A stretch of DNA of 64,000 nt. It comes from Cytospora piceicola (taxonomy: Eukaryota > Ascomycota > Sordariomycetes > Diaporthales > Cytosporaceae). Each line of letters begins with the position of its first letter. Positions within the stretch are counted from its first letter, which is position 1. A model generated the notes under the pieces. It was not told where the DNA came from, ran no database searches, and was given only the letters and a program-made list of their open reading frames with translations. The stretch spans positions 124,001 through 188,000 of the forward strand of contig JALQBC010000021.1 in assembly GCA_023375675.1 (NCBI GenBank), read 5' to 3'. The position numbers were made by a program, and so were the translations under genes. This document shows, piece after piece, positions 8,347-54,021 of this stretch.

Positions 8347-8406
8347 ATCCCTGTCAAGCGAGAGTAAATTTTCTCCATTTTCGGCAGGTCTTAACTCCTG
8401 AGACAC

Positions 8407-8520
8407 TGTTTCTGGAGTGCATCTCGAGTCTGATATATGTTTTTAGAGTGCATTTTCGAGTATGATATATGTTTTTAGAGTGTATCTTCGAGTCTGGTAC
8501 ATGTTTTTAGAGTGCATTTA
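8407..8520 (+). repeat. 31-32-base tandem units near the left tip
   Basis: Three full copies and a partial one of a unit beginning TGTTTCTGGAGTGCATCTCG or TGTTTTTAGAGTGCATTTTC. Mutations between copies are mostly C/T and G/A transitions. Two or three related units lie inverted near 53855-53975 at the right end. Confidence 0.75.
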
Positions 8521-8544
8521 AAGCTGACACATACATCGTGAGGT

Positions 8545-9205
8545 TTACTTCGACCCTCGACCCTCGACCTTCGAATCTGATCGTAGCCACCACTTTGTCT
8601 CCATATCGCCTTCGAATTTAATCGTAGCCATCTCTGTCGCCCTCGACCCTCGACCTTCGAATCTGATCGTGGCCATCTCTGTCGCCCTCAACCCTCGACC
8701 CTCGACCCTCGACCTTCGAATCTGATCGTGGCCATCTCTCTCTCTATGTCGCCTTCGAATTCGGGTACTAGCCTTCGAGTCTGATCGTAGCCAACTCTCT
8801 GTCTCTATGTCGCCCTCGATTTCGACCCCTAGCCTTCGAGTCTGATCGTGGCCATCTCGAATCTAATCGTAGGCATCTCTGTCGCCCTCGACCCTCGACC
8901 TTCGAACCTAATCGTAGCCATCTCTTTGTCTCCATGTCGCCTTCGAATCTGATCGTGGCCATCTCTGTTTCTATGTCGCCCTCGACCCTCGTCCTTCGAG
9001 TCTGATCGTAGCCAACTCTCTGTCTCCATGTCGCCTTCGAATCTGATCGTGGCCATCTCTGTTTCCATGTCGCCCTCGACCCTCGTCCTTCGAGTCTGAT
9101 CGTAGCTAACTCTCTGTCTCTATGTCGCCTTCGAATCTGATCGTAGCTATCTCTGTCTCTATGTCGCCCTCGATTTCAACCCCCAGCCTTCGAGTCTGAT
9201 CGTCT
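8545..9205 (+). repeat. TCTGATCGTGGCCATC satellite
   Basis: Irregular tandem units of roughly 50-70 bases are built from TTCGAATCTGATCGT, GGCCATCTCTGT, CTATGTCGCC and CTCGACCCTCGACC. The CTCGACC sub-motif is itself repeated two to four times per unit. The short open frames seen on the minus strand in this array are by-products of the repeat. The right end has about one copy of the unit (near 53750-53830). Confidence 0.8.
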
Positions 9206-9312
9206 AGCTTCCGCCACGGCTTCCGCCACGGCTTCTATTATACCTTCGAGTCCTTAGCTAATAGTCCCCTGTTTAACTAACCGTAGCCGTATAGGTAGTG
9301 TTTCTAGAGTAT

Positions 9313-10322
9313 CTTACGGTCGGTCCGCCCCGGAAGATCTACGTACGATACCTCTTACGGCCGGTCTGCTACGGTCGGCTTAAGCTATACCGAGTAAGAA
9401 AGGCGATACGGGAGGCTATAATGCCTTTTACGGTCGGTCTACTACGGAAGATCTACGATAGCTACGATGCCTTTACGGTCGGTCCGCCCCGGAAGATCTA
9501 TAATAGCTACGATACCTTTTACAGCCGGTCTGTTACGGTCGGTCCGAGCTATACCGAATAAGAAAGGCGATACTAAGCTATAATGCCTCTTATAGTCGGT
9601 CCGCTATAAAGCACGTAATATATAGCTACGATACTTTTACCGTCGGTTTACTATAGAATATATAGCGTATAGTCGGTCCGCCTTAAAAGATTTACGATAG
9701 CTACGATACCTTTTATAGTCGGTCCGCTACAGAATATATAACGTATAGCTATAATACCCTTAATAGTCGGTCTACCTCGAAAGATTTACAATAGCTACAA
9801 TACCTTTTATAGTCGGTCCGCTATAAAATATATAACGTATAGCTATAATACCTCTTACGGTCGGCTTAGGCTACGCCGGGTAGGAAAGGCGATATTAAGC
9901 TACGATACCTTTTACGGCCGGTCCGCCCCGGAAGATTTATAATAGCTACGATACTTCTTATAGTCGGTCCGTTACGGAATACGGAAAATATAACGTATAG
10001 CTACGATACCTTTACAGTCGGTCCGCTATAGAATACGTAACATATAGCTACGATGCCTTTTACGGTCGGTCTGCTATAGAAGATCTACGATAGCTACGAT
10101 ACCTTTTATAGTCGGTCTGCTACGGAATATATAACGTATAGCTATAATACCTTTTACAGTCGGTCCGCCTTAAAAGATCTATAATAGCTACGATACCTTT
10201 ACGGTCGGTCTACTCTGCTACGGAATATATAACGTATAACTACAATACCTTTTACGGTCGGTCCGCCCCGGAAGATCTATAATAGCTATAATACCTTTTA
10301 TAGTCGGTTTGCCGCAGATATA
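9313..10322 (+). repeat. ACGGTCGGTCCG / AGCTACGATACC satellite
   Basis: There are more than a dozen degenerate units of about 45-75 bases, each with TACGGTCGGTCCG, CCCCGGAAGATCTA or a TATAACGTATAG variant, and AGCTACGATACCTTTTA. TGCC/TACC and CGG/TAG differences between units are RIP-type transitions. Two inserts of ACCGAGTAAGAAAGGCGATA-like sequence interrupt the array near 9390, 9550 and 9870. The right end carries a short version (53478-53650). Confidence 0.8.
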
Positions 10323-10429
10323 TAAACATTATAAAGTTAGTTAGTTACTTTAACAGGCACTTTATAATATAAAGCTAAATCTATTTAGTTCGTCTTAATC
10401 TATACGAAAAGATATCGTACGCCGTTATA

Positions 10430-10582
10430 TATAATAAACACCTACTGAAAAATTATTATTTAAAAAGACACCTCGCTATATACAATAAACACTTACTAAA
10501 AAATCATTATCTAAAAAGACACCTTACTATACACAATAAACACCTACTAAAAAATTATTATTTAAAAAAATACCTTACTAGC
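10430..10582 (+). repeat. Three tandem units of about 50 bases
   Basis: Three copies of a unit containing ATAAACACCTACT, AAAAATTATTATTTAAAA and GACACCT lie just inside the left satellite. Several CA dinucleotides survive here, more than in the sequence that follows. Confidence 0.7.
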
Positions 10583-19770: not shown

Positions 19771-21360
19771 AGTAATATCTGTCGCTATAATATTAAAAAT
19801 AAAATAACTACTTAAAAACCTCTTTATTTACTAAAAAAGAGGATAATTAAAGTAAATAACACCGAAATATACTTAAATAACTTAAAACCCGGTTTTTCTT
19901 ATAAAATATATATACTGTTTAATTATACCGTTAGCTACCGAATATATACCGTTATTACTATATTTACCTACTTCCGGTATAGAAAAATTCTATAAGTATA
20001 TACTAATTAGTAAGATTAAGTCCTTTTAAATAACTAACTTTATAATACCTTTAATCTACTAAAAAACATTATATAAAGTATATATTTTAGTATTTTATAG
20101 TATAAAACGATTTAAATTAAATAAGCCGGCTTATAGCCTATAATAAGCGCCTTTTAAGGTAAGGAATATAGTAATAAACTTAAGCCTTATATAAATAGCA
20201 CTATTAACATACGCGCTAGACTAACTTTATAATACGCTTAACCTAATAAAGAAAATCGTATAAGATGTATAGCGGTATTATTATATAGCTTAGAATAAGG
20301 GGAATCGGGTAAATAGGTTTAGTTACTATAAAGTTTTAGTTATACTACCGAATTTAAGTAAAGCTATTATTTCCGAAAGTATTTTAACTAATCGATAAAA
20401 AAAATATAGCCTTCTTTAAGCTATACTAAGTTAAAAACGAGGTTTCTTAAGTTACTTCGATTAAATCGATTTAGCCTAGTCTTAATAGTAGAGTAAACCT
20501 TCTATTCGGTCCGGTTTACTTAAAGTAATAAGCGGTAAGCCTATTTTAAGCCGGCTATTTACCTTTAAAAAGCTCCGGGTTCGAAGTATACCTATAAAAA
20601 CTCTTTACTACGCTTTTTTAAGCTAAGCTACCTTTAGTTAATCGTAAAAGATAAATTTACTCGCTACTTTATATTAAATACTTATAACGTCGACTTTAGC
20701 TAAAACCTTTATAAGCCTTATAAAGAAGTATATAGACTAAAACGAAAAATAAGCTAATATAGCCGCGCTTTACCGATACTTTATACTAGATTTTAGCTTA
20801 ATAATTTATAATATTTATACCTTTCGACTATTTTTATAGCTGTTAAGCTCGAGGTTAGTTTTTTAATATACTAGTTTTATTAAGTTACTAATAAATAAAA
20901 TAATAATAAAACAGTTATAGAAAGTGCTTAAAGCTTAAAACATTATAACGGCTAAGCCTTTCTTTATAGTCCGAAGCAGCTATATTAAAAGAAGCTTTAT
21001 TAAAATATTACTAAACGATTTACTTACTTAAAAAAAGCTTTCCGGTCGCTTTAAGATAGTAATTAAACTTAAGCCTTTAAAAGCTGTTTATAAGTACTCG
21101 AAGTAAGTAAGTTTTATATAATACTAACTTATCGCTAAATGTTTTACGGTAAAGCTACTACCTAAAGAATAAAAGCTCGGCTTTTTAAAAGTATTACCGC
21201 CTTTATTCGGTATTTAAAATATTATAATATAGGCTGCTATAGGTAAATTCGTTTATAACGTTAAACTCCTTTAGCCTTTAAATATCTATTAAAAAACGTA
21301 AAGTTCTTAATTTCTATCGAACAGAACTCTATCTACTTAAATATATTTATTTCTTCCTTT

Positions 21361-21735
21361 AAGGCGAAGAGATTATAGCTCCTACTTAACCCCCTATACT
21401 TTCTTCTATTTTAAAAAAGCTCCGTAAAGAAATTATAGCTTTTACTTAGCCCTTTATACTTTTTTTTATTTTAAAAAAGCTTTATAAAGATATTATAGCT
21501 TTTGCTTAACCCCTTATACTTTCTTTTATTTTAAAAGAGCTTCGTAAAGATATTATAGCTCTTACTTAGTCCTTTATACTTTCTTTTATTCTAAAAGAGC
21601 TTTATAAAAAGATTATAGCTTCTATTTAACCCCTTATACTTTCTTTTATTTTAAAAGAGTTTTATAAAAAGATTATAACTCTTATTTAGCCCTTTATATT
21701 TTCTTTTATTTTAAAAAAGGTTTATAAAAAGATTA
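21361..21735 (+). repeat. Six 60-base tandem units, likely 20-residue protein repeat
   Basis: Six consecutive copies of an exactly 60-base unit contain GATTATAGCT, CCCTATACTTTC and TTTTATTTTAAAA. Copies differ mainly by C/T and G/A transitions. In the plus frame starting CTC-CGT-AAA the unit reads as a 20-residue motif with LRKEI and ILKK, the only stops being TAG in place of probable CAG. There are no spacers, so it is not a CRISPR array. Confidence 0.75.
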
Positions 21736-21879
21736 TTAATATATCTATCTTTAATAAGTTTTTCGATTTATAACTAAAGCGTAGGTTTATCTTATTAGCT
21801 ATTATATAGACGAACGGATACTTATAAACACTTTATATAAATATAACGAAACCTTATATACTATCGGCGGTATCGATAT

Positions 21880-22140
21880 CTATAAGCGTCGTTAGAAAAG
21901 ATAAGGCGTCTATATTTATAGACTCGGTAAAATAAGATAAGGTATAGATATTTATAAGCTAAGCTAAAAAAGATAAGACGTTTACGTCTATAGACTAAGT
22001 AAGATAAGATAATATATAGATATCTATAAGCTAAGATAAAGAAGATAATACGTTTACGTTTATAAACTAAATATTAAGCTAAGATAAAAAAGATAATAAG
22101 TTTATATTTATAAGCTAGATAAAATAAGGTATATTAGTAT
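21880..22140 (+). repeat. Degenerate tandem repeat, about 80-90 bases
   Basis: Three or four units share GATAAGRCGTTTACGTTTATAGACT and ATAGATATCTATAAGCTAAG. The purine-rich strand is plus. Copies are diverged and the last is truncated, so the unit length is approximate. Confidence 0.55.
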
Positions 22141-22827
22141 TAAGTAAGATACTTTTATATAAATTAACTCTGTTTAATATTAAAAGTTAACCTGTTTTAA
22201 TTAATTAAAAAGAATATTATTTTAGTTAACCTGTTTATAAACTATAATCGGTTAATAGTTAAAAATATAAAAATAATTAAGCGAATCGCTTTATAATACG
22301 CCTTACCGGTAATAAAGTAAGCCGGCTACTTAAAAAGTCTACTAAACTTAAAAGAGGTAATTATAGTATTTAAGATATTTCCTTTATAGCCGGATAACTA
22401 CGGTATAATAAAAGATTATAAAATACCGGCTTTCTTACGTATAAAGTTTAATATAAAGTAAAAGAGGCTTTTATATAGCTATTAAGCCTATAGTTATTTT
22501 AATACTATTATATATAACGGTAAGCCTATCTATTTAAGTAACGGTTAAAATAAACTTAAAGAGATTATAATAGCGTTTTATAAGTAGCTTTATAACCCCG
22601 ATAACTAGCTTAAAGAAACTAAGAAGCTTATTATTTATACTTATAATATTTAGCTATATATATATCCGAGCCTAATTAAGTTGCGTTATAAAAAAGTCTT
22701 CTTTTGTTAAAATAACGGTAAATATAACTAAGGTATATTTCTTATATAAAGTACGAATTCTCTTATATATATTAAAGACTAACTTTACTATATAAGTTTA
22801 ATAAACTAAGCCGGGTTATTCGAAGTA

Positions 22828-24149: not shown

Positions 24150-26390
24150 GATAGGCTTAAAAACTTATAAGTTACCTATAAAATATAAGTTTATAAAAAA
24201 CCTTTATTTATTTACCGGTACCTTTATATTTATAATAGGTTTAATATTAAATATATAAACCTTATATTTATCCGGCTACTATATTTAACTTCGGTTAGCT
24301 ACGTTAAAAGACTTTTTTTAAAAGAAAAATATTTATAATAGCTTTTAAAACTTAAAGTAGTAATAGTAAATTTTCTAAATAACGCTTAGTATATAGCTTA
24401 TCGTACGAAAACTTAAATAAAGCTTTATAATAGCGGTCGGGTTATAAGCGGCTTTATAGGTGTTTCCGCGTTCCCTGCTAAGATTTATAAGATTTATAAG
24501 ATCTACTAAGATTTATAGTTTCTTTAAGATCTTAACGGCTTAAACTCGAAGCTTTAAGTTTTAAAAAGCCTATATATTTACTAATACTATATTAGGTAAA
24601 TATAATACCGGTACTCGGGCAGATATATTAGCGTCGAGTTATAACCTTTCGACGTCGAGTTATAACCTTTCGAAACAGGTTATAACTTACTATAACGTTA
24701 CGTATTTATAATAACGGCGATAATTATAATAGTAATAATAACGATAATCTAATATCTTCTTAAGTCGTTTACAGCTTAATTATTAATTAAAGACTATAAT
24801 AGCTATTATATTGTCTAATAGTATTAGCCTATATTAATAAGAAAGGCTTTTATTAGCTAGAGATTATAGCTAAAATAGCCTTAAACGTCTTTATAAAACA
24901 GCTTATATAGGTATAGTTAGCCTTTTTACTTTCTTTAGCTAGCTTTAGTAAAGCAGGCCTAAGGCTATTTTAAAGGAAACTAAAAGTAAGGCCGATAAAG
25001 TTACTTTTTTATTAAAACTTAAAGAGTATTAAGACCTTTTTAAACTACTACTTATAGCGGATACCGAAACCGACGATATATTAAGCGATATACTAAGTAG
25101 TAAGTAGATAAAAAGCGTTAACTACTTTAGTAAATTATTTATAGCTATACCCTGCCTTTATAAGTTTATTTTTATATTATTACTTTTTATAAATAAATAT
25201 AGCTTACTAAAATATATACTATCTTTTTATATAGCTATCTTTACCGGTAATTAAAAGCAGATACAGAACGTACTATAATAGCTATAACCGTAAAAGTAAT
25301 TAAAAATCTAAACTATCTTAAATCTAATCGAGCTTATTCGGTATATTCGAACTTAAATATATATCCTTAGATTTATTAACGAGCCGATTACTTTAAAGTA
25401 TTATAACTTACTTTATTAGCTAGCGATAAAGACTTTATATTAAACCGAAATACACTTTTATTTTAAAAAGGCCGTTAGCTATCTTTTAGAAAAATCTATT
25501 AAGACTAAATTTAAAAAGGTACTACCTTTTAAATCGCTTTATATTAGCTATACTACGGAGTATAGTATAAAAATTTCCTTTACTAACTTACGATAAGTTA
25601 ATACGTTTATATATTATAAGCCTGTGTTTAATAAAGACGAAAACGAAAACGAAAACGAAAATAAAGACGAAGATAAAGATAAAGATAAAAACGAAAATAA
25701 AGACGAAGATAAAGATAAAGACGAAAATAAAGACGAAGACGAAAACAAAAACGAAGACGAAGATAACGATAATAATTAAAACGATAATAAAGATAAAGAT
25801 AAAGACGAAGATAAGTTAAAGCGGATCCTTATAATTATAGTAAAAGTAGATTTTACGTATTAAACAGATAATAAGGAAATTAAATATAAGTTTACTCTTA
25901 TATATATATTTTACGGTAATATTAACCTCTAATTATTCTATTAGTTATTTAAAAGTACTATAGAATAGACTTTACCTAAATTCTCTGCTTTAATATTTAA
26001 AAGCGGGTATATTCTTAGCGCTAAGCTAACCTTAAAAAGCTATATTATATAACTGCCGACCTTATATAAGTTAATAGTTCGAAACTAAACTACTATTTTA
26101 AAAAAAGGATAATCTGCTAAAAAGGTAATAGCGATAACAGTAACAGTTATAGTAATAGTAATAAAATTAAGAACTACTATAATAAAAAAGCGCGGTTTTT
26201 CGAAGTATTATTAGACTTTATACGGTCGGTCCCGGTAGGGATAACTATTAAAATCCTTTATAAAAGACTTCGTTCCGCCTTTAATAAGGCCGTCTAAAGC
26301 TAAATTAAAGCCGATTATCTTCGGAAAGGGAAAGGAGAAGACAGTAGTAAACGTTCTTAAGGTCTTTATAATAGTTAAGCTAATTTATAA
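24150..26390 (+). pseudogene. Fossil open frame 5b with acidic low-complexity tract
   Basis: One plus frame continues for about 2.2 kb to a possible stop near 26388. It includes a poly-Gln-like run (near 24721, where every TAA or TAG can derive from CAA or CAG), EYxDLFKLLLIADTETDDI near 25030-25080, and a tract of alternating Asp/Glu/Asn/Lys codons at 25636-25815. It ends with a basic segment LKPIIFGKGKEK near 26305. The acidic tract alone strongly favours plus as the coding strand. It is a large protein of unknown family. Confidence 0.45.
25636..25815 (+). repeat. GAYAAR low-complexity tract
   Basis: Nearly every base fits alternating GAC/GAT/GAA and AAA/AAT/AAC triplets, coding an Asp/Glu/Asn/Lys-rich segment in frame 5b. 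CpG survives throughout. This is simple-sequence expansion inside a former gene. Confidence 0.7.
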
Positions 26391-26639
26391 GTAATATATA
26401 ATAATATATAAATACCTAATAATAACTTTTACCTAGCTTTTCCTTGTTTATACCTGTATTATACCTCTGCTTACTTTTTTAAATCTTATTACTCGATATA
26501 CTTTTAGCTAAACTTAAGCCTTAATACTTACTATACCTTATTCGCTATCGAGTTACTCGGTAATAGCTTAAATAATACCTTTAAATACTATTTTTACTTT
26601 ACCGCTAAAGCCTAAACCTTGGCTAGCCGGCTAACGTTT

Positions 26640-36114: not shown

Positions 36115-36440
36115 TAACCGCTTCGCCCGGCTACCCTATTACCCGGGCCTAATACCCGGCTTAAAAAAAGTATCGTCTGTTAAAAATACTATAAACCTAG
36201 TTTACCTAGCTACCTTTATTACCTAGGCCTATTACCCAGGCCTAACACCCGGCTCGGTCTGTTAAAAATACCGTAAACCTAGCCTACCCGGCTACCCCTA
36301 TTACTTAAGCTTAACACTCGGCCTAAAGAAAGCATCGTTTACTAAAGATACCGTAAACCTAACCTACCCGGCTACTTTTATTACTTAGGCTTAATACCCG
36401 GCTCGGTCTGCCGGAGATTTTATAAACCTAGCCTTTTTAG
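36115..36440 (+). repeat. Four GC-richer tandem units of about 80 bases
   Basis: Units contain GGCTACCCCTATTAC, TTAGGCTTAACACCCGGC, CGGTCTGTTAAAAATACCGT and AAACCTAGCC. Several carry CCCGGG or CCTAGG palindromes. CpA and TpG survive here more often than in the surrounding sequence. Confidence 0.7.
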
Positions 36441-38519
36441 CCTTCGAAAGATTATATACCTTTTCCTTTAACTCTCTTATATAGTATAATAAAAAGTTAA
36501 AATATAATACCTTTCGTCGAAGAAATATAAAACTAACTATTACGTTTAATTCCTTCTTTTTTTTAATATATATTTAACAATACTTTCGAAGTACGTATAA
36601 CTAGTTTAAATAAATACTAGCTATATAAAGACAACTTTATTAATAACGTTCTAATTCTTTAAATTAAAACTAATATATTTAATAGTAACGACGTCGATAA
36701 TAAAAAACTTTTTAACTTTAGCTTTACTATTATATATAAGACCTTTAAGGCTAAAGCTAAGGCTAATAATACTAATACTATAAACCGCGTAAATAATATC
36801 TTCGATAAGAAAGAACAAAACGGTATTACCGACGACTTTAATAAAGTCGTATTATAAATAAGATCGTATAAAAAGATAACCGAGTAAATACTATCGGCTT
36901 AAGTCTTATTAAAGAAAACGGCGCGCTTACTTTTATTACTATTAAAAAGCGTAGCCGCCTTTCGCTTTCTGCCTTGTATATATCGACCCTTATAAAAACT
37001 CTTAAATCTGCTAAAAGTAACGCTACTTTTATAGCTAGTAATAATCGTAAACGTAAAGCGGTAAACTATACTAATAAGCCTTCTGTTTAACGTTTTAGCC
37101 GTATTACTATTACGGCTAAACGAATAAAAAATAACCTTAAACTTATAATAGCAGTATTAAACCTTAACCTATACGTATTTTCTTTTATATTAATAATTCT
37201 AAAACTTAAGCGTTAACGTATAGCGAATAAGCTAAAACTACCTATAGCAGGCTTAGTTATAAGGCGAAAGATAAAGATAGGCGCCGGGCGACTATTTAAT
37301 AAGAAGTATAAAGTAAAGAATATCTTTCTAAAACGACGGTATAAAATTTATATATACGGTTACTCTTTTAAAGAAATATAAGGTAAGTAATAAAAAAAAG
37401 ACTAATCCCGGCTACTACCGAAAAGACTACTACCTTATAAAAAGGTAAGCTTAGTTATAAGCTTAAAGATAATATTAATAAAATCAAGGCCGAGAATAAC
37501 TAGCCCGGTAAAAAGTATAAGGTAAAGGATATATTAAACAGTATTAATCTAAAACTAAAGAACCTATATTTTAAGTAATAGAAGGGCTACAGTTAAAAAG
37601 ATAACACTTAAAACCTATACCTTAAGTAGTAAAAGGGCTATAGCTAAAAGGATAACACCTGAAACTTATACCTTAAGTAGTAGAAAGGCTATAGTTAAAA
37701 GGATAATATCTGTAGCTTAAAAAGACCTTATACACGCCGTTACTCTTTTAAAGAAAGATAAAGCAAGTAATAATTTAAAAAAAACTACTATTAATAAAAC
37801 TATCAGCTTAAAAGTATATCTTATTAAAGCTATAAGCCGTATTACTTATCGTAGTCCCGGTACTATCTCTACCGTTAATATAATAAAGGTATTAATAGTA
37901 TCGGATCGGTTTAAACAGAAGATATTAATATTATAGTATACGCCGTAGTCTTTATTATAAAGACACTTATCCTCTTTATATTAAAGCTATTATAAACGCT
38001 AAAAATAACGACGGTATTACTTTTATTTAAAGCTTATAAGTAATAACTATTATTACTATAGTTAAGGTATTACTTATAGGTTAAATTAATAATAAACTAG
38101 CTGTTTCTATTATATAACCGAGGTATATAAACTATTTAATAAAGTAATAATACGTTAAATATAAAAGGTTATTAAATAGTAAGATTAATTAAGCCTTTAA
38201 TAACTTTATATCTTTAAATATAAGCTAATTATCTCCTATCTTATCTAAACTTATAATATAGTTAAATTCTAATATACCCGAGATATTCTGTATCCGACTT
38301 ATCGGAAACGTAAAATATATATATTAAAACTATAACTATCTATACTAATAGGTTTAGTACTTTACCTTTTACTTTTATTTTATCTTCTTATTAGTTTTTA
38401 ATATACTAGTATTATTTTATAATTAAACCTCGCTATTATTAGAGCTTTTTAATTTATATTTTACTATACTCTATTTCTAACTTTATATATTTTTACTTTT
38501 TTATTTTTAGTCGGGGATT

Positions 38520-39960
38520 AAATATACGCTATTTAAAAACTAAGTAAGTATATAAAGTTAAAATCTTAGCTACTATAGCTATTAAGAACCGTCTGTTAAT
38601 ATAAGCTTCGTTAGATTTAACTATACTTCGCTACCTTCTTTAATACTTATACTCGTCTTAATATATACCCTTTAAGATATTCTCCCGGTAAAGCTATATC
38701 GAATCTTTAACTAAAACCTATATTAACTACTAAAGCATTCTTAATATAATATTATATTATAAAAACCGTTTACTCTCGAAGCCTAACGCCGACCTATAGA
38801 AATAAACTAAAAAAGAGCTGTTACTATACGCCGCTATATACGATATAAAAATACTGTAAAAGCTTTTTAAAATAGCGTATAAAGAGGTAGGAAAAGCTTT
38901 AAACTTAAACTTTAAGTTTATACGCTCGCTCGCTTAAAACTAGTATAGCCTATAAGTTAACGAAAAGGCTATAAAAGTATAGATTTTCGAAAGTATTATC
39001 CGTAAGATTATTAAACAACTATAGCCGGCAGCCTTTTTTATAACGACCGCTTAAGCCTTTAAGAACAACCCTTTTTACTTTTTCTTTTACTTTTTATAGT
39101 AAGATAGTATATTTAATATTACTAATACCGCCGCTATCTCGCTTACCTATTAAATAATAATTATATTTAACGCCCTTAAGTTATTTACTTTAAACCTTTT
39201 TAGCGACTTTAACTTTTTACTATCGGGCGACTTTAATAGTATATCGACTTCTCCCTTAAGTTAGTAAACAGGTATATATATCTCTTAACGTATATCGGAT
39301 ATAATAAATATACTTTCTATCGACTTTACGCCGGACCTTATCTATAGCCGCTCTGTTTTTAATATACCGGAAAAAATAGCTATACGTAGTTTCGTATAGC
39401 CTTTAAAGCCCTATAAGCGTAAAAGAGACTTTAAAAGCTTAATATCTTTTATTTAAAAGAACTTATTATAAGCTTAAAAGTTATTAGTAAACTTTATTAA
39501 AGTTATCGATACTAAGTATCCCGACGTTACCGTTATCCTAATAAACAATAAGGGAAGTTAAAATACTAAAAAGGCTATATAAGTCTTCTTTTAAGATATA
39601 ACCGATATTAATAAGCAAGCGTTTATAATAAAGATATACGTTACAGATATTCGGCAGACCGCTTTTAATTAGCTCGACGTCTTTTTTAAGATTATTAAGG
39701 ATATAAACCGGGTTAAAAAGACGATAAATAAGGTAGTTAATAAGATAAGGCGCCTTAATATAATAGTATCCGGCAACGATAGCAATAATAATACAGCTTC
39801 CGATAACATTAAGTATAAGGGTGTCGGGCATAAAAGTAATAGTTAAAGCTACTACAGCAACGTAATAAAAACGTAATACCCCGAAAATAGTTACTATTAA
39901 ACGATAAATACAGTTAAAAGCAGCTATATAAATACTGTATTTAACTTATTACTAGTTTTA
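38520..39960 (+). pseudogene. Fossil open frame 8
   Basis: A single plus frame holds for about 480 codons with only TAA/TAG stops. Segments include KLFKIAYKEVGKALNLNFKF near 38855-38915, then NFLLSGDFNSISTSP near 39211-39255, DFTPDLIYSRSVFNIPEKIA near 39320-39380, and VIDTKYPDVTVILINNKG near 39502-39556. A long Lys/Asn-rich stretch leads to SGNDSNNNTASDNIKYKG near 39770. The GDFN and TPDL words recall endonuclease/exonuclease/phosphatase domains of LINE elements, but spacing and downstream sequence do not support that assignment. The minus-strand open frame at 39538-39831 is its shadow. Confidence 0.45.
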
Positions 39961-42900
39961 TTAAAGCCGTAATAATACTTTTAATAAGTATAAGTAGCTT
40001 TATATATATAAGGCTATTAAGTAGTACTTAAAACCTTATATATATTATACTTATATACTTTTACTATAATCTTTTATTATTAATTACCTTTATATACCCC
40101 TTACGGATAAGCTGTTTCTTAAAAACCTTCGACTATCTTACTTTAAATTTAAACACTATATAGTAAAAAGTATCTACTCCTTTTAGCCTTATTCTTATCG
40201 ACTATAAATAGCGCTTATCGAACAGGCTATCCTTATAATATAATAGGTTAGTAAGTGTTTTTTCTAATCCTCAGTACTTTTAAATATCGCTTTAAAGTAA
40301 AGACCGTTATTTATTAGGGTTTTTTTTTTAGTTTAGTATATATTAGTTAACGATATATTATCTTCTTATTAGGTTTAAAGCTTAAAACACTCGACTATAC
40401 CTTCTCTTCTCCTTATATATACTATAAGCCGCTACTTTTATAAAGTTTACTTAAAATTATATACTATAAATATCTTAAGGTATAATATAGTAGCAGCAGG
40501 TTTAATTAGTTAAAATAAAAAAAAAAACAAGTAGTTAAACTAATATTAAGTATAAATACTATATATATATTTAACCTAAGTACCTAAACACCCGATATTT
40601 ATACTATAAACATTAAGTATAATACCTGTAACGTTAATCTCTTTTAAACTCGGTATAAGCTACTTAAGTATACGGATATATATATATTCTATATATTTAT
40701 TATAAGTAATACTGCTTTCGAGGCTTTTAATAGTTTTAATAAGTATAACGATAACTATATAAAATTATTAATAAAGGGCTAAAATAAAAATATAAGTATA
40801 GCTATTTCGAGAAGTATTTTTTACTTTATTTTTCTTAGTTTTAACTTACTTTACTTATTACTTATTATTTAAATATAATACTTATCTCTTTAAGCGTTAT
40901 ATATAGCTAATTTTAGCCGCTTATTATAATCTTAAATAACTTAAGCTATAAAAGGTTATTATTTATTCGGGCGATAGATAAACGTCGAACTTATTAACTA
41001 AAACTTATAGACTTTCGGCTATTATTAAGTTTAAAGCCGAAGACCTTCTCTTCGAACAGCCCCTTTCTTTTTATTTTACCTAGCTTTTACCCTTTAAGTA
41101 AATAAACAGAAAGGATTTTAAAATCTATAGTTAATAACTTAGCTATACGCGATAATAATAGCTAACCCGAAATTACCGATAGCCTATACGTTATAACAGA
41201 TAACAGCCCGGATACGTTATAGGCGCTTCCGATAAATATAGGTATACTAAGTTATAAACGTATTAGACTAAAGACCTTTAGATAAGGCTCTATAAAGACT
41301 AATACCTTCGAAACCGATTATATTAACTAGTTTAATAATAGTTTTATCTATAGTAGAGATATCGGTAAAGATAATAACGTTTACAGTAATTTACAGCTAC
41401 GAATAAGCTTAGTTTATCCGACTTATAATAACGTTTTTAAAAAAAACTTAAAACAAATATCGAATAAGCTTACTATAATATCCGAAAAGGTTACTACGAT
41501 AACCGATAATATCGCTATAATAACTAAAACGATAAAAAGCTTGTTTATAATAGCCGATACCTAAAAGACTATCTTCTATAAAAGCCGCGATCTTTTTTAA
41601 AGTTAAGTTAAAGAACTAATAAGTTCTTTTATATTACAGATACTAATCGACTTTCTACTAAGTAATATCACCTTATACCTAAACACCTTTATTAATAAGG
41701 GCGGTAACTATAGCTAAAACTAAGTACTACCTTTAAACGATTTTAGTTTTTTTTAGTTATTATCCCTTAATACTTTATAAGATATTAACGATTAAGGAAA
41801 GGCTATATAAAGAATAAAGGAAAGGGAATATAATAGTAAATAAGTAAAAAAGAGTTTAAAGTCGTTCTTATATTTTATAACCTATATCGGTCGGTTATAA
41901 TAAAGGTAATAAAGAAGCGGTTATTATAATATATATAAAAGCGGTCTAAAAAAGGGGGTAAAAGGTAAAGTATAAGGTTAACTAACTACTAGTAAAGGCT
42001 AAGTTAATAACGACTAATAAACAGATTCTATTATTACTAACTTACCTTTAATTATAATACTTATAATATTTAATTTAAAAAGTATAATTATATAAAATAT
42101 TTTAAACGAAAATTAATTAGAATTAAACAGTTTTTATAGTAAAAAGTAACCGACCCGATAAAAGAAGACAGTATATTAATACTATATTAAATATCTATTA
42201 TAAAATAATATATATAATAACTTTAAATATCTGTTATTACTTAGGTAACTATTACGTTAATACGTTATACTAATTATACAACCGGTTTACTTAATACTTA
42301 TTATATTTATACCTTTAGTTTTAACTAATTCTAATAAAAACACTAACTAACTTAATACTTTATAACAGTATTAAGTATACTTATTTACTCTTTTTATAAT
42401 AAGTATATCTAATTATTTCTAATATCTATTAGCTAAGAGTTTATAAATTAATTATTTACTTATTATAACTTCCTCCGCCTTTAATACTAACTTTACGTAA
42501 GCTTAAAAAGTAACGTCTAGTATATTTCTAAACCGTAAGTCTACTTATCGCACCTTTTAATCGGTATAATACTAATATAATATTAAAGGCCCCGGTTTTT
42601 CTAAGGTTTACTTAAGACGTAGCTAAAGGAATATACCTAAAGTTAGTAACACGATTTCCGGGTAACCGCCGTTCGATAAACCGTAAAGTCGGGTAATTAA
42701 TAAGTATTATAATTATTACTATTATAGTTATATCCTTCTCCTTTACCCTTCTTTACTAATAATATCGAAGCTCGACCTACTTACTATAAATATAGTTATT
42801 CGTAACCTATAATAAAACGCCTGCTTTTATTTATAAAGTATAGGTAATAAACAGAGTAGTTATTAAGTCGAGAACCTTATTACCTTACTTACGTAGATTA

Positions 42901-44639: not shown

Positions 44640-46010
44640 TAATACTGTTACTTTATTAAAGCTTTTATATAAAACCTTAAGCTAAGTAAATTCGATTAGC
44701 TTAAATATTAGCTCCGGGCTAATAAAACGTTAATAGTATAATAAGTAAGGCTTAAGCTTTTTATAATTATTTACACCGGAACCTAGATAATGCTTTTAGT
44801 ATTTTTATCTAATTTATCTGGATTATTTAAAACGGCTACTTTAAGTTTTTTAGCTTTATAAAAAATACTACTATACCGTTTAATATCGAAGCGTAACGCT
44901 TCGATAACTTTATTTCTTACCTTATAGATAAAAAGCAGTGTTTTTAAGATCTCGAATTTTATATCGCCGAGAAAGAGCGTAATATCGCTAACTATAAAGG
45001 TCGGCTTTTCGAAAAAGAGCGTAGTATCGAAGTTAAAGATAAGCAGCTAAATAAAAAGACTTATATCTTCGAGCGGAATAAAGAATATATCGAAGTATAT
45101 AGTATCGAAGTAATAGAATAAAAGTATTATTTAGTAAGGGTTATTAATTCTATCTTAAAAGGCTTAGTAAACGCCGAATTATAAAGCTTTTAAATAGAGT
45201 AGGATATAGAGGTTACTAATAAAGCGGTTTCGGAGGCGAGGGTTAGGTTATAAAAGGTTTAAAATACTATAAAGAACGTAGTTAGTATACTAAAATATAC
45301 TAGTTCGAGGTTAAGTAACGATTAAAAAGGTAACCGAAAGCTTAATATTATTATATTTAAAAGGTAATTATATAATCGTATCGGGCGATAAGGCTATATC
45401 TAAAAAGCTTTAAATAACTATAAGGTTTTTAAATTAAACTAAGAAGTTAAATAGGTATTCTTATTACCTTATTTTTTAATATCTGTTATACCTTTTACTT
45501 TTTACTATAAAGTAGTTTAACTAATTTATCTTAACTATAACTTAAAATAAATTATAACCCTTATACAACCTTTTACTTTACCGACCGTTATACCTTTAAC
45601 CTTTAACTGTTATACCTTTTACCGCGATACCCTTTCGATTATTTTTAATCTTTAACTATAATACCTTCGACTGTAATATCTTTTTTTACCGACTGCTATC
45701 TCTCGACCGTAATACCTTTAACCGCGATACCCTTAACCGCGATACCTTTAACTATAATGCCTTTAACCGTATTACCTTTAACTATAATGCCTTCGACCGC
45801 GATATCTTCCTTCCTTTACCGACCGCTATTCTTCGACTACGATACTCTCGACTACAATACCTTTAACCGCGTTATTTTCGACTACGTCGCCCTCTTATAA
45901 CGCCTTCTGTAACGCCTTTAGCGACGCCCTTTATAATACTTTCCGACTGTAAGCCCTTTTAGCCGATTACGATAATATTTAGTATAGCGAATAAAATATT
46001 AAAATACTTT
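44640..46010 (+). pseudogene. Fossil open frame 9: coiled coil plus pentapeptide repeats
   Basis: A plus frame of about 455 codons has TAA/TAG stops only. A strongly charged, heptad-like segment lies near 44940-45110 (AEKERNIANYKGRLFEKERS, then a further run ending ERNKEYIEV), most likely a long coiled coil. A second helical stretch (ARVRLxKVxNTIKNVVSIL) lies near 45230-45285. From 45590 the frame enters a 15-base minisatellite that codes a five-residue Pro/Arg/Tyr/Leu/Gln-type repeat. Among the fossil frames this has the clearest protein character. The function is unknown. Confidence 0.5.
45590..45960 (+). repeat. 15-base minisatellite
   Basis: Degenerate copies of CCTTTAACCGCGATA (variants with CTATAATG and TTCGACTACGATA) are spaced by 15 bases or multiples over about 370 bases, interrupted twice by TTTTTACCGACCGCTAT. 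In the plus frame the unit gives a pentapeptide repeat. Confidence 0.7.
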
Positions 46011-48284
46011 ATAACGCGGTAGTAATAGCTTTATACCTAATCTAACGTTTAAGGATAGCGGTATATATAAAACGGTTTACTAGCTGCGGCTAAATAGTTG
46101 CTTTTAGCTTAACTATATCTGTTCTTTAAGCTTTAGCTTTAATCTCTTAAAACTAAGTTAGATTGATTTAATTAAGTCGAAAAGACTTAAGAAATCTCGT
46201 TTTTAACTTAATATAGCCTTAAAGGAAAAGCTATATTTCTTTTTCGTTATACCTTTTTATTTTTAATCTGTTAAAATACTACTAAAAATCCTTATATATA
46301 TACTACGATAAAACAACTAGCCGGAATCTTTATATTATATACTAGTAAACGTTAAGATAAAGGTAGATAATTATTTTTATTTTAATACCTACTTTTCCTG
46401 AATAATTAACGTATTCTTTTCTGTCTTTCTTAGTTTATTAAATAAAAGTAAAATAAATATTAGTTTTAAAAAATCGCTTTTAGCCTTTTACTTATTTTAG
46501 TTACTATTTTATCGGCTTTATCTTTATATTAATCCTTTTATCTTTTAGATAATCTTTTAAATAATAAGCTTAATAAAAGGCTTTTTATTATTATAAAGAA
46601 GACTAACGTATAGAACTTAGTACTTACGCCGCGTTTATACCGCTATATCTTAATATCTTTATCCGAGATTATCTTTTAAGATAGGTAAAACCTTATTATA
46701 TATCGTTATACTAGAAAAGACGCCTTTATTATTTAAGAGAAGCCGCGATATTAGCCTTACCTTTTCCTTACTCTTTTTCCTATCGATTAGATACGGGATA
46801 CCTTTTTTATCGAGCTTTTTTTAAAGTTAAGTTAGCGTTTAAAAGAAAATACTTTTTCTCGGCTTTTCTTTCGGCTATAGTAGCTCGATATTAGTCTTTT
46901 AATATATAAAAAGCGTATATTTCTTTACGTAAAAGACGTCTTTTATAATACTATTTAAAAACTTTTTATCCGAGCTAATAAGGATAAGGCTTTTAATAGG
47001 TATACTTATTTCTAGTTACTTAATAAAGACGTTTAGTTTTAGCTTCTTATTTAAGCTAATCGAGATAATAGTTATAGCAGGTATACTTATACTACTTAGC
47101 TACTTATTTAGCTTTTATTATAATTATACGGTAGTACTTTTTTAAGGAAACGTTTATTTAGGCGGAATAGCCGTTAAAGCGATTTATCGTAATCGGTCTT
47201 TATCCGAATCGGAAATAGTATATACGCTTTTATCCGAAAAGCCTATACTATAGAATAGCTTTTACTTTAAAGGGATAGCTATAAAGATATTACTTTATAG
47301 CTAGTTTATATAAAAGTCGATAATAATATATATTCTTACCTTATTCGAAAAAAGGCGTTTTTTATTTAATAAAAGAACTATAAATATATTATTTTATCTT
47401 TATAGCTAGTCTTTCTTTTTATCGATTATATACTTAACTACTTTTTTTAAATAGTCTTTAAGCTATAGAAGCTTACGTTTTAACAGAATAACCGTAAAGA
47501 TATTTATTAGTAGTCGGCTGCTTTTTAAAGGTATTACTAGTATATAAGCTTAAATATATATATTTATACTTTTTAAGAAAGTCGAATACTTCGCCTTTAT
47601 ATCTTATATAATTAACCTAGCTAAATCTTCCCGAGATAACTCGTCCGAGGCCGACTATATCTTTTTACGTTTTATATAAGTATATAAGCTTTAATAGTTT
47701 ATTACGATTATATTAAAGACTTTAAGTAGTAATATATAGTACGCTTTAACGTTATATCGTAAGTTATTAACTAAAATATCGGTAATTAGCAGATAAGTAA
47801 TAAAAGGTTTATATTATTATACTTCCTAGCTTTTACTTAAAGAAATACGCCGGTCGACGATTTATTAGCGAAGCTCTGGAACCGTTATATCGAATAAGCT
47901 CTTCGACTTAAATAAAGACTATATACGTTATATTACGTCGGGCCGGTCTTATTTTTAAAGCTTAAATATAATATAAGCTATAACGATACCCTTTTTCGTT
48001 TAGTATTTAACCTTTCTTATATAGAAATAAAGATCTTTAATTATTATATTTATAAAGCGTATTAGCTAGTTTATTAATAGGTCGTTTTATAGTAGTTTAA
48101 ACTTTTATATTATAAAGAAAACTATTAGACAGTTATAGTTTAATTTATTTAAGATCTCTTACTAATCGGTAAAACAGCCGAGGGTATTTTAGGTTAATAA
48201 GGATATCTTTTTAGCCGTTTTTTATATAAGGATATTTCTTAATAGCAACGGCTTTTTTTAGTCTTTTAAGTCTATAATCGTGTT

Positions 48285-49359: not shown

Positions 49360-51290
49360 AAAAATAGATTTAAAGTGTTTATATAGCTAAACTAAACACG
49401 CTTTTTTAATAAAGCCCTTAAGTTAATAAACTAATAAGCCTAGTTTAAAAACGATAAAATAAATACGTTATTATAGCTTATTTAATAAAGATACGGTATA
49501 AGGTACTTTTTCCTCGAAATACTTTTATTACTAATAAACGTATAAAAAGATATTATCGTTTAATTAAGCTAAGAAATAAAAGATATTAAGTCGGCCTTTA
49601 TTTATACCGTAGTTATAAACTTATTATCTATCGGCTTATATTAAGCCTTAATCGTCGAGTTTAAAAAGAAGTTTTTATACTTCGATATAATATCGGTCTT
49701 ATAAAAGCTATATACTGCCTTTACTTAAAAACTCTTCGTACCTATTTTAGTAGCTGCCGGTATCGATATTTAGTTCTTACCTACTATAATCGTCGAAATA
49801 CCTTAGTAATTAAGCGAGTAAGAGTATAGACTTTTTATTATAGAGATATAACATAGGATTATCTACGAGAGTAACCCGACGGCGGTTATAAGTTAAAGCA
49901 AGAGTATCGAAAAGGTTATTAAGCTATAGAAGGCCGTAATTATTTAAGAGCTCGGCGATATTAAAGATAAAGATAAGCCCGAAAGAGCGTTTAAGCCTTA
50001 TATTAAAAATAAGTATATAATTATCGCTAAAGTAGTTTTTAATTAAAAGGCTAACGATAAAGTATTTTTAGTCGGTTTTAAGGATATTTTTACGTTAAGA
50101 TTAAAAGACTTTATATTTCGAAAGAATATTCGAGATAATAAACTTATACCCGGCCTTTTTAAAAAAGAGTATAACGAACGCTTTAAAGATATTATAAATA
50201 GCTTTCGGTATAACTTTTATTTAATCCTGTTAGCTAAATTTATATCTGTAAAGGCTAACGATATTTTAAACCTATAAGCCTTCGACTTCTTAACTAGCTA
50301 AAACACCTTCTTTCCGGCTTCGCTATTTACACTATCTTTAAAAGCTTTTATACTGTTTACTTGTCGTTAAAAGGCTTTATACTATTATATAAAGGCTAAT
50401 ATAATAGTTATAATAGGCTTTTTAAACTAGGTAAAGGGCTAGAATTAGTTTCTCTTCGACTTTATAATCGGCGTATTTTAGTAAAAAGTCTCGCGAGATT
50501 TCGAAACTCTTTAAGCTTAACGCCTTCCCGTTTTCTAATAGCTTACCGTAGCCGTAAAAAACCTAATAATAGCTCGACGTCTACTAAGGTTCTTCGAAAT
50601 ATATTAAGCTCGGTATAAGTAATAGGCTAAGATAATAAATAAAGACTTAAAGATAGTTTTTAAAACCGTTTCGATAAGGAGAAAAATACGGATTTTAAAG
50701 AAGAAGCTTATAAAGGCTAAATATCCGCCTTTTAAGTTTTAAATCGTAAAAACTAAATCTTTTAATAACGTATTAGTTTAAAAGGCGTCCCGGATCTAAT
50801 AAGACTACCTAGCTATTTTTAAAAGCTATAGCTTTAGCGAACCGGAGTTTAAAACCTATATACTTCTTAATAGTATAATCTGTCCCTTCTATATCTTTTA
50901 CTATAGCTAGCTACGCTCTTTTAACTATACGATCGGTACTTTATATACTATACTAATATCTTTACCTTTTTATACAGCCTATAATAAAGCTATAACGCGC
51001 TTTAACCTTTATAAGCCTAAACTAAGTATTTATTAAGAGCGGTTCCTTTTTTAAATTATTTATAACGTCTTATAATAAATCGCTTAAGCCGTTTAAAAGA
51101 TTAATAACCGGCGGCTAAATAAAAACCGCTACTCGTTAAACTTTATACTTAAGGTCTAATAGTTAATTATAAACCGTTAAGGCTTTTTAATCGTACTATT
51201 TAAATATAGCCCTTTCCGTTATATACCTATTATATAAAAACCTCCGAACTCGATAATATTTTTAAAATACTAAAGTCTTTTATTACCGGT
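49360..51290 (+). pseudogene. Fossil open frame 10a, large plus-strand gene
   Basis: A plus frame stays open for about 640 codons with TAA/TAG only. Segments include KLFVPILVAAGIDI near 49725-49770, IIYESNPTAVIS near 49865-49900, LGDIKDKDKPERAFKPYIKN near 49950-50010, then DKVFLVGFKDIFTLRLKDF near 50055-50115, and LIPGLFKKEYNERFKDII near 50140-50195. Further on are FSEPEFKTYILLNSIICPFY near 50840-50900 and LNKNRYSLNFILK near 51115-51153. Composition and length are protein-like. I do not recognise the family. Frame 10b starts where it ends. Confidence 0.5.
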
Positions 51291-51299
51291 AGTTAGACC

Positions 51300-52480
51300 T
51301 GTTAAGTACCCGAACCTATTCGATCCGGTTAAAAGCTTTTAAGACAAGTTTCGTAACGTTACTTAAAATAGCAATATCACGAATAAAGTTATAGGCTTTT
51401 ATAATCCTTCGTTTTAGCTATCTTAGTTTACTTACTTATTATAAATCTTAACGAATAGTTTATTTTAAAAGCTCGACCTTAAACTTAGTAAAGAGCGATA
51501 AGCTTTAAAAGAACGTTTTAAAATAAAAGCTCCCGATTCGTTATTTATAAACCTTAACTTACCAGACCCTTTATATACTTAACTTTTAGATAGTTAAGAC
51601 TAGCTATTCTCTTTTTAATACCTTAATTATAATATTAGTAACCTTAACGCTAACTAACTTTAATACTACCTTAACCGCTTTTATAATAAGTAAAGGTATA
51701 AGTATAATATTTACTAAAGGTTATTCTTTAACTAAAAAGTTCTAAAAGCTTATCAGGATATTAACTTTTATCTCGATACAGAAAGGGTTCTCGATTAAGC
51801 TTACGAGTTCTTTTAGAAATACCTTCGTTACGATTATATCGACTATACCGGAAGGTAAAAGAGATACAGAAATAAAAGAAACCTAAATTAACACCGTTAA
51901 AGTTATATACCTTTAAAAAAGCGATCGCCTCCGACAATAGTTTATAAATACAGCTTTTATTAGGCGGATAAAATAAGTTTACTTATTTAATATTAAGCCT
52001 CCCGATTTTATTAACAGTATATAAACAACTGTAGTAAGCCTAACTAAAGGCTATTAAAAACGTTCTAATACTTAGTCTATTATATAGAGACTAATAATTA
52101 ACAGTATTAAAAAAGTTATTAAACCTCGGAGTACTATAAAGCTAGCGTTTTTTTCTCCTTTCTTTAAACTAACTTTCAAAAGATTAATAAAGCTACTATT
52201 TAAAAGTAAAAGGCTGTTTAAAAGCCTTCTCTATCGAAGGCACTCTAAAATTCTTAAAACAACTATAAAGCTATATAAAATCGCGGTTTATAGAAAAGAG
52301 GCTAAAATAACGAATAAAAAGGAAACCTTTTTATTTATAAGGCTTATAAATACAGATTTACGTAAACCTGTTATTTTTATCTATATCTTAGTATTATAGA
52401 ACACGAATTCCGAGATTCTACCTTTATTTTATTATTACGGAAGTATCGTTATTAGCTTTACGACTTCGAAATAAATATCT
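51300..52480 (+). pseudogene. Fossil open frame 10b
   Basis: The readable plus frame moves by one base here and stays open for about 390 codons. Clear tracts are SIQKGFSIKLTSSFRNTF and IPEGKRDTEIKET near 51770-51885, and KVIKPRSTIKLAFFSPFFKL near 52115-52180. A further open run extends to about 52390 with KSKRLFKSLLYRRHSKIL (near 52205-52260). The change of frame on one strand suggests an intron between exons of one gene, or adjacent genes. The family is unknown. Confidence 0.4.
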
Positions 52481-52530
52481 TTTACCGGTCGAAAAAGTAT
52501 ACTATAAAGTATTATTTAATATTTAAAATC

Positions 52531-53220
52531 GAGCCGTTAAACCTTATAAAAAAGGTTAAGAACTTTTTTAAAAAGCTTCGAAATATCCTCTTAAGTAACG
52601 ACGGTATCCCTACCGACTTAAAGGAAAACGTATATTCCGAATACCTCTATTTATTCTCTTACGAAAGTAAGCTTTTATAATACTAATTAATAAGCAGCTA
52701 CTATATAAACCGCGATATACTTAAGTTAATCGACAACGTCGTTTTAATCGCCTATATAAAAGTATATATATACCTTAAAAGTTAAAAGCCTACCGGAAGC
52801 GATAGTTAAACTTTATAGCTATTACTTTAAAGTAAGGCTTTTAAAAAAGGTAAAACGTCTAAAAAGAGTAAAGCAGGTATTACTACTAAAGGTGTTACTA
52901 TTAGATAATAGCCGGTTTCGAATTTAAAATTAACTTTAAAACGTTAGAATTCTAACGATAGTTACTCTTTAAAAAAGTTTTTAAAGCGTTAGTCCCCGAA
53001 GGTAAAAGATTTTATAATACGTCGACGATTATTATAGCTAGTCGCTTTTTAGCCGAGTAATATATCGCTATTAGTATAAGCGGTAGTATTAAACGATATT
53101 ATAAATAAAGGTAAAAATAGTTTTAAAGATAATAACGTTAAAGGTAACGGTATAAATATTAATAGTATAGAAAGTAATAATAGTAATAACAGTAACGATA
53201 GTTTTAAAAGTAAATAATAG
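52531..53220 (+). pseudogene. Fossil open frame 10c, Asn/Ser-rich C-terminus
   Basis: The plus frame shifts back and runs for about 230 codons. It starts with EPLNLIKKVKNFFKKLRNIL (52531-52590), then has ESKLL and NRDILKLIDNVVLIAYIKV near 52710-52770. A Lys/Ser/Gly-rich linker (near 52840-52890) and an Asn/Ser tract SIESNNSNNSNDS near 53165-53205 follow. It ends about 260 bases before the right terminal array. Low-complexity content favours plus as the sense strand. Confidence 0.4.
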
Positions 53221-53477
53221 TTTTAATAATAATAAAGTAATAACGATAATAACTTTATAATAAATAAGGGTAAGGATATTTAAATTAAGATATATGAATT
53301 TTAAGCGTTAAGATATTATATAAACGATTATAATAATTTATCGCTTTTATCGCCTTTAGTATTTAATCGAATAGCCTTCCCTTTTATCCCTTTTACGCCG
53401 GAGGCCTTTTATAACTAACCTTTAAACGATAATTCCTACGTTGTCTATATCGTAATCTAATAACTGTTTTTCTAATA

Positions 53478-54021
53478 TACGTTATATATTCTATAACGGA
53501 CTAACTGTAAAGGTATCGTAGCTATTACCTAAGTAGTTACTACCTAGGTAGTTACGTATTCTGTAGCGGACCGACTATAAGAGGTATCGTAGCCTCTTAT
53601 ATCGCCTTTCCTACTCGGTATAGCTTAAGCCGACCGTAGCGGACCGACTATAAGACGTACTAAAAACACCGCCTATACGGCTATAGTTAGATAATTAGTA
53701 GTCTATTAAACGTAATAGAAGCTAAACGATTAAGACTCGAAGGTTAAGGGTCGAAGGTCGAGGGCTATATAGAGACAGAGAGATAGCTACGATCAGACTC
53801 GAAGGCTAGACTTAAAGGTCGAAGTAAAACTTACGATATATATATCAGCTTTAAATATACTTTAAAAACATATATTATACTCGAGATACACTCCAGAAAC
53901 AGGCCTTAGACTCGAAAATACACTTTAGAAACAGGTCTTAAACTCGAAAATCTGCTCTAGAAACACTGTCTTAAGAGTTAAGACCTACTAAAATCGGAAA
54001 TTACCGCCTCTCGATGTCGAG
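53478..54021 (-). repeat. Right terminal inverted repeat, short form
   Basis: Read on the minus strand from 54021 inward this has the tip, two or three 31-32-base units, the AAAGCTGATATATATATCG block, one TCTGATCGTAGC unit and the GCCGTATAGGCGGTGTTT junction. Three or so TCGGTCCG units follow, ending near 53478. The order equals the left end, but the arrays are about four times shorter and more heavily mutated by RIP. Confidence 0.8.

Follow-up and report, generated by a model that had tools for sequence, protein, structure and literature searches.

A giant inverted-repeat element splitting a glutaminase gene in Cytospora piceicola: possible evidence for an undescribed family that integrates without target duplication

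A glutaminase gene of Cytospora piceicola is interrupted by a long AT-rich tract, which raises the question of what kind of element this is and how it arrived there. The window, meaning the whole 64-kb stretch of DNA that was analysed, was compared with other copies in the same genome to set the borders. The element runs from 8348, beginning TCCCTGTC..., to 54022, finishing ...TCGAGG. The features of the element and its insertion site are as follows.

8348 to 54022, no strand: the complete element of 45,675 bp, with its A-type tip on the left and its R-type tip on the right (tip comparison over other copies)
8348 to 8615, plus strand: left arm of the terminal inverted repeat, with the A tip (TCCCTGTCAAGCGAGAG...), from the TIR alignment; among fetched places this tip adjoins 23 distinct flanks
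8407 to 10308, no strand: subterminal tandem-repeat arrays
53758 to 54022, minus strand: right arm of the terminal inverted repeat, carrying the R tip (CCTCGACATCGAGAGGCGG... when read inward) and a tandem unit of 32 bp; 18 distinct R flanks
54023 to 55266, minus strand: 5' part of the split glutaminase, stopping inside the His codon (PF17168, PF16335)
7450 to 8347, minus strand: 3' part of the split glutaminase, comprising a short exon end, an intron and the last exon (joined segment against PF16335, last-exon translation, stop position)

The first-pass annotation had placed the borders at 8351 and 54021; its extent of about 45.7 kb stands, and comparison with other copies moved the exact ends. 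Likewise, its statement that the ends align without gaps holds for the outermost part only, the full 231-position alignment having 178 identical positions and 3 gaps (E 7e-45). The satellites it described in the terminal repeats were recovered as tandem repeats behind both tips. GC content was about 0.25 within the element vs about 0.5 outside. The (CA+TG)/(AC+GT) ratio was 0.086–0.131 over 10.3–53.4 kb vs 1.19–1.20 in the flanks, with milder values at the outer ends (0.84 at 8.35–9.3 kb, 0.14 at 9.3–10.3 kb and 0.22 at 53.4–54.0 kb). Scans of the 64-kb window for tRNAs and Rfam families gave 0 matches.

The flanks had been read as two parts of one GtaA-type glutaminase, and this was borne out: the 5' part has matches to PF17168 and PF16335, and a joined 193-aa segment across the junction matches PF16335 over residues 1 to 193 (2e-45). 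In P-H-D-L-G the insertion cuts the His codon as CA|T. In keeping with the first-pass annotation, the junction shows no target duplication.

Related sequence was found at at least 40 places in the 43.6-Mb genome. The block at 50000–52960 was scored at 40 places among 51 first-look candidates, at 75–81 % besides the window, and the window-type left body occurs at 8 places, whose bodies also agree in one further region. Among the fetched places there were 23 distinct A flanks, 18 B flanks and 18 R flanks. Both tips thus recur in other flanks, which excludes the possibility, raised earlier as a refuting outcome, that they occur only here, and the dispersed copies exclude a chance origin of the structure. 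Both tips were seen in 16 copies, each with an R tip opposite an A or a B tip, over a span of 33.5–61.6 kb; B-type tips start with CCC and the right end is CGAGG. Pairs were chosen by position and tip type. One paired copy is type-I and its far end was located by base composition, and in C43 the second tip was placed by hit position only. In the C51 pair the distance from tip to tip is 102 kb and includes foreign DNA, so that this pairing is doubtful.

The flanks of 17 tip pairs were joined, an initial set of 16 and then C41. At five loci a join with 0 bp removed or added rebuilt a Pfam domain spanning the junction, namely a glutaminase, a kinase, an aldo/keto reductase, a HET domain and an ammonium transporter. 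These Pfam-decided joins (window, C41, C12, C9 and C1a) are compatible with the loss of whole target codons, and none of the five loci has duplicated flanking bases. Joined flanks of C28 had a Pfam match beside the junction only, below the cut-off. The Pfam test covered the 0-bp joins of these six loci, and the other eleven joined pairs are C47a, C90, C36, C24, C15, C5, C47b, C58, C51, C23b and C16b; inspection of the remaining tip pairs by eye gave no consistent direct repeat. The crossing ORF was longest at the 0-bp join in 6/16 pairs of the initial set (C47a, C90, C9, C36, C15 and C1a). The length of the ORF is not enough to pick out this join, because in 10/16 pairs, including the window and C12, the ORF was equal or longer at a join shifted by one base. 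For the window the shifted join gives a 389-aa ORF, longer because an intron starts just past the junction; for C12 the shifted ORF is equal on the same strand and longer on the other. The sequence after the R tip begins pyrimidine-purine in 18/18 R flanks. The elements appear to insert precisely and to leave target bases uncopied, and the target is probably only a short degenerate motif.

The silencing by RIP proposed in the first-pass annotation is supported by comparison between copies. Against the C47 copy the window has 5061 transitions and 61 transversions in 35,987 aligned bases, with four patches set aside, and 15 pairs among six window-type copies, compared over 199–399 bases, have 0 transversions. 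Variable patches between the window and C47 are listed here.

25848 to 26423, no strand: 77 transversions
35017 to 36799, no strand: 117 transversions
45428 to 46400, no strand: 48 transversions

This pattern indicates that the window and C47 copies were near-identical before independent RIP. The window type spread recently and RIP came afterwards. Present-day movement cannot be seen, because every element body read is RIP-mutated.

Gap lengths and transversion phase in comparisons between copies point to about seven coding blocks kept between subfamilies. They are listed here, together with one possible block, with the share of gaps that are multiples of 3.

21360 to 22330, either strand: conserved coding block with repeats, 20/25 gaps against three B-type copies
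26600 to 27150, either strand: conserved coding block, 9/9 gaps
30930 to 32100, either strand: conserved coding block, 24/30 gaps
38600 to 39850, either strand: conserved coding block, 26/26 gaps; transversions 42/20/12 by phase
41000 to 41740, either strand: conserved coding block, 14/14 gaps
44640 to 45360, either strand: possible conserved coding block, 11/13 gaps
46560 to 48240, either strand: conserved coding block, 19/19 gaps
50000 to 52960 (limits approximate), probably plus strand: gene of about 1000 codons, RIP-inactivated, present in all three types and allelic between copies (40 scored places, in-frame gaps, alleles)

No known domain was credibly recognised in the element, and a six-frame Pfam scan of 38.5 kb of the RIP-damaged C36 copy gave no credible match. 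Two families passed E 0.001 in the C36 scans, PMG at 2.5e-6 and Decapeptide repeat at 2.7e-4. Both fall in set A6, which includes the higher-GC stretch of C36, a low-complexity repeat, and they were presumed to be repeat-driven.

The codon borders of the gene at 50000–52960 were derived from transversion phase and in-frame gaps. Across 28 copies (50.28–51.56 kb), 131/131 internal gaps were multiples of 3, and transversion columns were distributed 59/34/35 by phase. The strand is only probable, because the antisense frame in phase carries fewer stops. Stop density and fixed stops left the frame undecided, with RIP sites mostly saturated (104/140 TA sites fixed in 28 copies), and AT symmetry confounded frame scoring by tblastn. 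Copies that share a body differ in their allele of this gene, with seven alleles among eight copies, and the divergence ends about at the gene borders. The gene contains hypervariable segments, with nearly even phase counts of 33/27/24 (8 copies, 50.28–51.56 kb). Such segmental hypervariability would not be usual in an enzyme whose substrate tips are constant. An AlphaFold model of the read-through gene had a pLDDT of 30.5 and no usable fold, PDB profile searches with both gene frames gave 0 matches, and a single IMG/VR scan run with the alignment of the gene yielded no confirmed relative.

Models of the Starship captain, PolB and the Harbinger/Spy transposase had no match in the element, and Rep/helicase had none in the six-frame Pfam scans of the single RIP-damaged copy C36. 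RVT_1 has 58 matches genome-wide, and contig C16, which holds the window, has none of them; RIP-damaged reverse transcriptases elsewhere in the genome were readily detected by profile search.

The best-surviving alternative, itself unlikely, is a Starship-like element whose tyrosine recombinase is too diverged or RIP-damaged for the DUF3435 model and whose other genes are cargo. The size and the RIP-competent fungal host fit, duplication-free insertion suits site-specific recombination, and PMC12153272 reports TIRs in 18/20 Starships of one species. However, the same paper reports direct repeats of 2–12 bp at 19/20 Starships, and no direct repeats were seen at the ends of the element. Conservation within and between subfamilies extends over much of the body, which may speak against variable cargo. 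PF11917 occurs at one place in the genome, as two adjacent pieces on C51 outside the window element, although RIP could hide a diverged one. None of the fetched copies matches that sequence strongly, and it adjoins B-type element sequence.

An endogenous dsDNA virus or linear plasmid with terminal repeats and many integrations, comparable to Polintons/Mavericks, is improbable. It would account for a length of about 45 kb, TIRs and several conserved genes, and PMC6431247 gives Polintons of up to 40 kb. Against it, PF03175 (protein-primed PolB) had 0 matches in the genome at E 0.1, although RIP could hide it, and neither the C36 nor the IMG/VR scan offered support. Polintons duplicate 5–6 bp of target, and no duplication of this length was seen. 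A gene-rich DDE transposon that makes no target duplication, as in Spy (PHIS), seems more improbable still: Harbinger relatives with 0-bp target duplication do exist (PMC12730594), but PF13359 (DDE_Tnp_4) had 0 matches in the genome at E 0.1, with the proviso that RIP could hide one. Assembly artefact or segmental duplication instead of transposition draws on the evidence being one assembly without reads, and is scarcely credible when many copies have their tip ends in common but lie in different flanks, and five flank pairs rejoin into one domain.

On the observed ends, copies, domain-restoring joins at five loci and several conserved reading frames, we propose as the probable reading an unrecognised family of autonomous, multi-gene, giant TIR elements integrated precisely by a recombinase without target duplication. 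The earlier suggestion of an undescribed family was not contradicted, in that no known mobility domain and, within limited coverage of the literature, no recognisable description was found. Given the RIP damage and that limited coverage, the element could still be a diverged representative of some known class. The element would pair its two diverged inverted tips, and precise recombination would insert it with target bases not duplicated. The recombinase may be encoded by one of the element's own genes. The best candidate would be the gene at 50000–52960, as the block most alike between subfamilies, in all three types and usually a few kb from one tip; this enzyme assignment is a guess, because no recombinase domain was recognisable in profile and domain searches of the RIP-damaged sequences.

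Since this gene is the region most alike between subfamilies, ectopic gene conversion may swap its alleles between copies, which would place different alleles in otherwise near-identical bodies. Same-body copies carrying different alleles of one gene are what is new here. More tentatively, and with the balance slightly against it, the elements could represent a new superfamily among the autonomous giant elements of eukaryotes, one that combines about seven conserved genes with a recombinase of its own acting without target duplication. In it, near-identical bodies would mostly differ in their allele of one diversified gene, as if that gene were an identity or exclusion marker or were actively reshuffled between copies. 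For the alleles, the question is whether gene conversion is at work or selection that favours divergence among copies. A second kind of giant fungal element, unrelated to Starships and present in tens of copies in one genome, would change the reading of AT-rich, RIP-mutated tracts in fungal assemblies and offer one more possible means of transporting large DNA, and duplication-free integration points to a recombinase of interest.

Compared with known systems, Helitrons share the lack of target duplication and can be large, but they have no TIR and have TC...CTRR ends, whereas the element has TIRs and a right end of CGAGG. Spy (PHIS) likewise has TIRs and no target duplication; Spy elements are small, whereas the present element is far larger and its genome has no DDE_Tnp_4 match. 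Polintons/Mavericks resemble it in spanning tens of kb with TIRs and several genes and differ in their PolB, which was not found here, and in their target duplication, which was not seen. Starships are, like the element, giant and fungal, usually with TIRs and short insertion targets. The element differs from them in having no detected captain and no observed direct repeats, and in its conserved multi-gene body, its diverged TIRs with satellites and its presence at at least 40 places in one genome.

Comparison of the window element with other copies placed its borders at 8348 and 54022 (45,675 bp); the first-pass annotation had correctly described a giant TIR-bounded element, with limits of 8351..54021 that are now adjusted. 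The ends are inverted repeats with 77% identity over 231 aligned columns, and the alignment contains 3 gaps, so that the gap-free match stated in the first pass holds for the outermost part only. Tandem repeats were located inward of both ends by tandem-repeat scan, consistent with the internal satellites reported in the terminal repeats. Both flanks belong to a single GtaA-type glutaminase gene, as proposed, and the joined segment matched PF16335 at 2e-45 (residues 1–193). The interruption had been assigned to the point between the His and Asp-Leu-Gly codons; the P-H-D-L-G region holds, and the cut falls inside the His codon.

Element limits of TCCCTG...CGAGG (A-type) and CCCTTG...CGAGG (B-type) were used to join flanking sequences. 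With 0-bp joins, Pfam matches spanned the junction in the window (PF16335) and at C41 (kinase PF00069), C12 (PF00248), C9 (HET PF06985) and C1 (PF00909), and no bases were repeated between the two sides of the junction at these five loci, in line with the earlier remark that no obvious target duplication is seen. At C28 the Pfam match lay beside the junction only. ORF length by itself cannot select the join: for 10 of 16 pairs, moving it by one base produced an ORF at least as long. The Pfam check covered the 0-bp joins of six of the 17 pairs. From these joined sequences, insertion at these loci is judged to be without target duplication, with the 0-bp joins also compatible with whole-codon loss. 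The sequence outside the R tip (the right end type of the window element) began with pyrimidine-purine in 18/18 distinct flanks, and other target preferences were weak.

A genome search for further copies had been proposed, and both the left and right tips were found to recur across the genome. The block 50000–52900 gave 40 scored places including the window, from 51 first-look candidates. The left body of the window element was found at eight places, and those eight also ranked highest in searches with another part of the body (38–40 kb; two overlapping queries). Copies were sorted into three types by the relative positions of the tips and the 50-kb gene, a RIP-inactivated gene of about 1000 codons.

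Copy types of the giant element
Window type: the 50-kb gene sits close to the R tip and distant from the A tip
B type: the 50-kb gene sits close to the R tip and distant from the B tip
Type I: A tip on the same side as the 50-kb gene

C41, the sole type-I copy with its far end seen, ends in an R tip located by composition probes. Seventeen spans measured 33.5–61.6 kb, with both tips read in sequence for 16. A reverse-transcriptase match was present in each of the three longest, whose size can thus be explained by nested retroelements. Within the span of the C58 copy, a reverse-transcriptase match (G000:C58:36130-36612) lies in a 1476-aa open frame without stops; this probably belongs to an unmutated retroelement, younger than the giant element that houses it.

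The block in the window is AT-rich, and the dinucleotide index gave a very strong RIP signature over 10.3–53.4 kb. At the left end, the outer ~1 kb (window 8348–9300) carried far fewer RIP mutations, with an index of 0.84 vs about 0.1 in the body. The window and C47 copies aligned over nearly their full length at about 83% identity; across 10.32–53.5 kb, minus four patches chosen post hoc, the 35,987 bases compared contained 5061 transitions against just 61 transversions, bearing out the initial reading of RIP. The excluded patches held 365 transversions in 6280 bases. Six copies (C8, C22, C90, C14, the window and C47) compared over a 200-base stretch of the body showed 0 transversions in all 15 pairs. 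C64 and C79 are represented by body identity alone, 85–86% in the 38–40 kb searches. The dominance of transitions and near absence of transversions show that the compared bodies were all but identical at the time each copy underwent RIP, the order being recent spread first and RIP afterwards.

The gene at about 50000–52960, probably on the plus strand, is coding, as its gaps and substitutions show. Among 28 copies over 50.28–51.56 kb, internal gaps were multiples of three in 131/131 cases and transversion columns were distributed 59/34/35 by phase. One frame was kept throughout this interval in 19 of 20 further copies, the exception (L103) having 11 positions off frame. The later part of the gene has exceptions: near 51.63 kb gaps of 1 and 5 bases occur as a pair, beyond 52.5 kb the gaps in C12 are irregular, and by pairwise alignment three of four C-terminal pieces had 37–84 positions out of frame.

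In this gene, hypervariable segments alternate with conserved segments. Between the window and C47, 127 transversions clustered at 49.56–52.74 kb (124 from 50.005 kb onward), with just two from 52.74 to 54.0 kb. Over about 1250 bases, the eight window-type copies carried seven alleles, with pairs 25–44 transversions apart except C64 and C79 (0), which are each other's nearest. The nearest allele was a type-I allele for five of the eight, with C22 tied. The simplest account would be ectopic gene conversion within the region most alike between subfamilies, and a bolder one would be selection for difference between copies. Pairs with 0 transversions over this length (C57 and C75, two copies on C26, C64 and C79) are possibly recent parent–daughter pairs. 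The window and C47 diverge in three more patches as well; tandem repeats at window 25634–25821, 34970–35145 and 45650–45799 lie in or beside them, and misalignment may inflate transversions there.

Seven further conserved blocks had mostly in-frame gaps relative to B-type copies, counts that are selected because the blocks were picked from a profile.

Conserved blocks of the window element
21.4–22.3 kb
26.6–27.2 kb
30.9–32.1 kb
38.6–39.9 kb
41.0–41.7 kb
44.6–45.4 kb
46.6–48.2 kb

A 60-bp tandem array (window 21367–21736) lies inside a conserved coding block, and read-through lengths suggest a different unit number in other copies. Neither Pfam nor PDB provided a credible family for the 50-kb gene in the window copy (six frames) or in eight copies (two frames; best Pfam E 4.7). 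Likewise, no credible family was found for window 26.1–31.0 kb or for 38.5 kb of the C36 copy (both six frames), two repeat-like families passing 0.001 in the latter. As a control, RIP-damaged reverse transcriptases were readily detected, with TAA or TAG in 54 of 58 matches; a common domain can thus survive RIP, with no guarantee for every domain.

Models for PolB and for the Harbinger/Spy transposase had 0 matches in the genome, and an IMG/VR scan confirmed no relative. Literature coverage, which excluded preprints, gave no recognisable description of such a family, leaving the suggestion of an undescribed family uncontradicted. Starships, as described in PMC12153272, encode a tyrosine recombinase, the captain, and are accompanied by short direct repeats. 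In contrast, flanking bases of the giant element were not repeated at the five joined loci, and the genome's one captain match (PF11917), although beside B-type element sequence, falls in DNA without a strong match in the fetched element copies. This RIP-damaged captain-like sequence (L135/L136, G000:C51:180411-184209) lies near a sharp junction with the B-type sequence at about C51:181454, and may represent a Starship nested within a member of the giant family. Overall, this is a real multi-copy family of giant TIR elements, once recently mobile and now RIP-mutated, which inserts without target duplication and carries several genes without recognised family. Until its enzyme is recognised it is classed among the giant DNA transposons, with a new superfamily almost equally probable.
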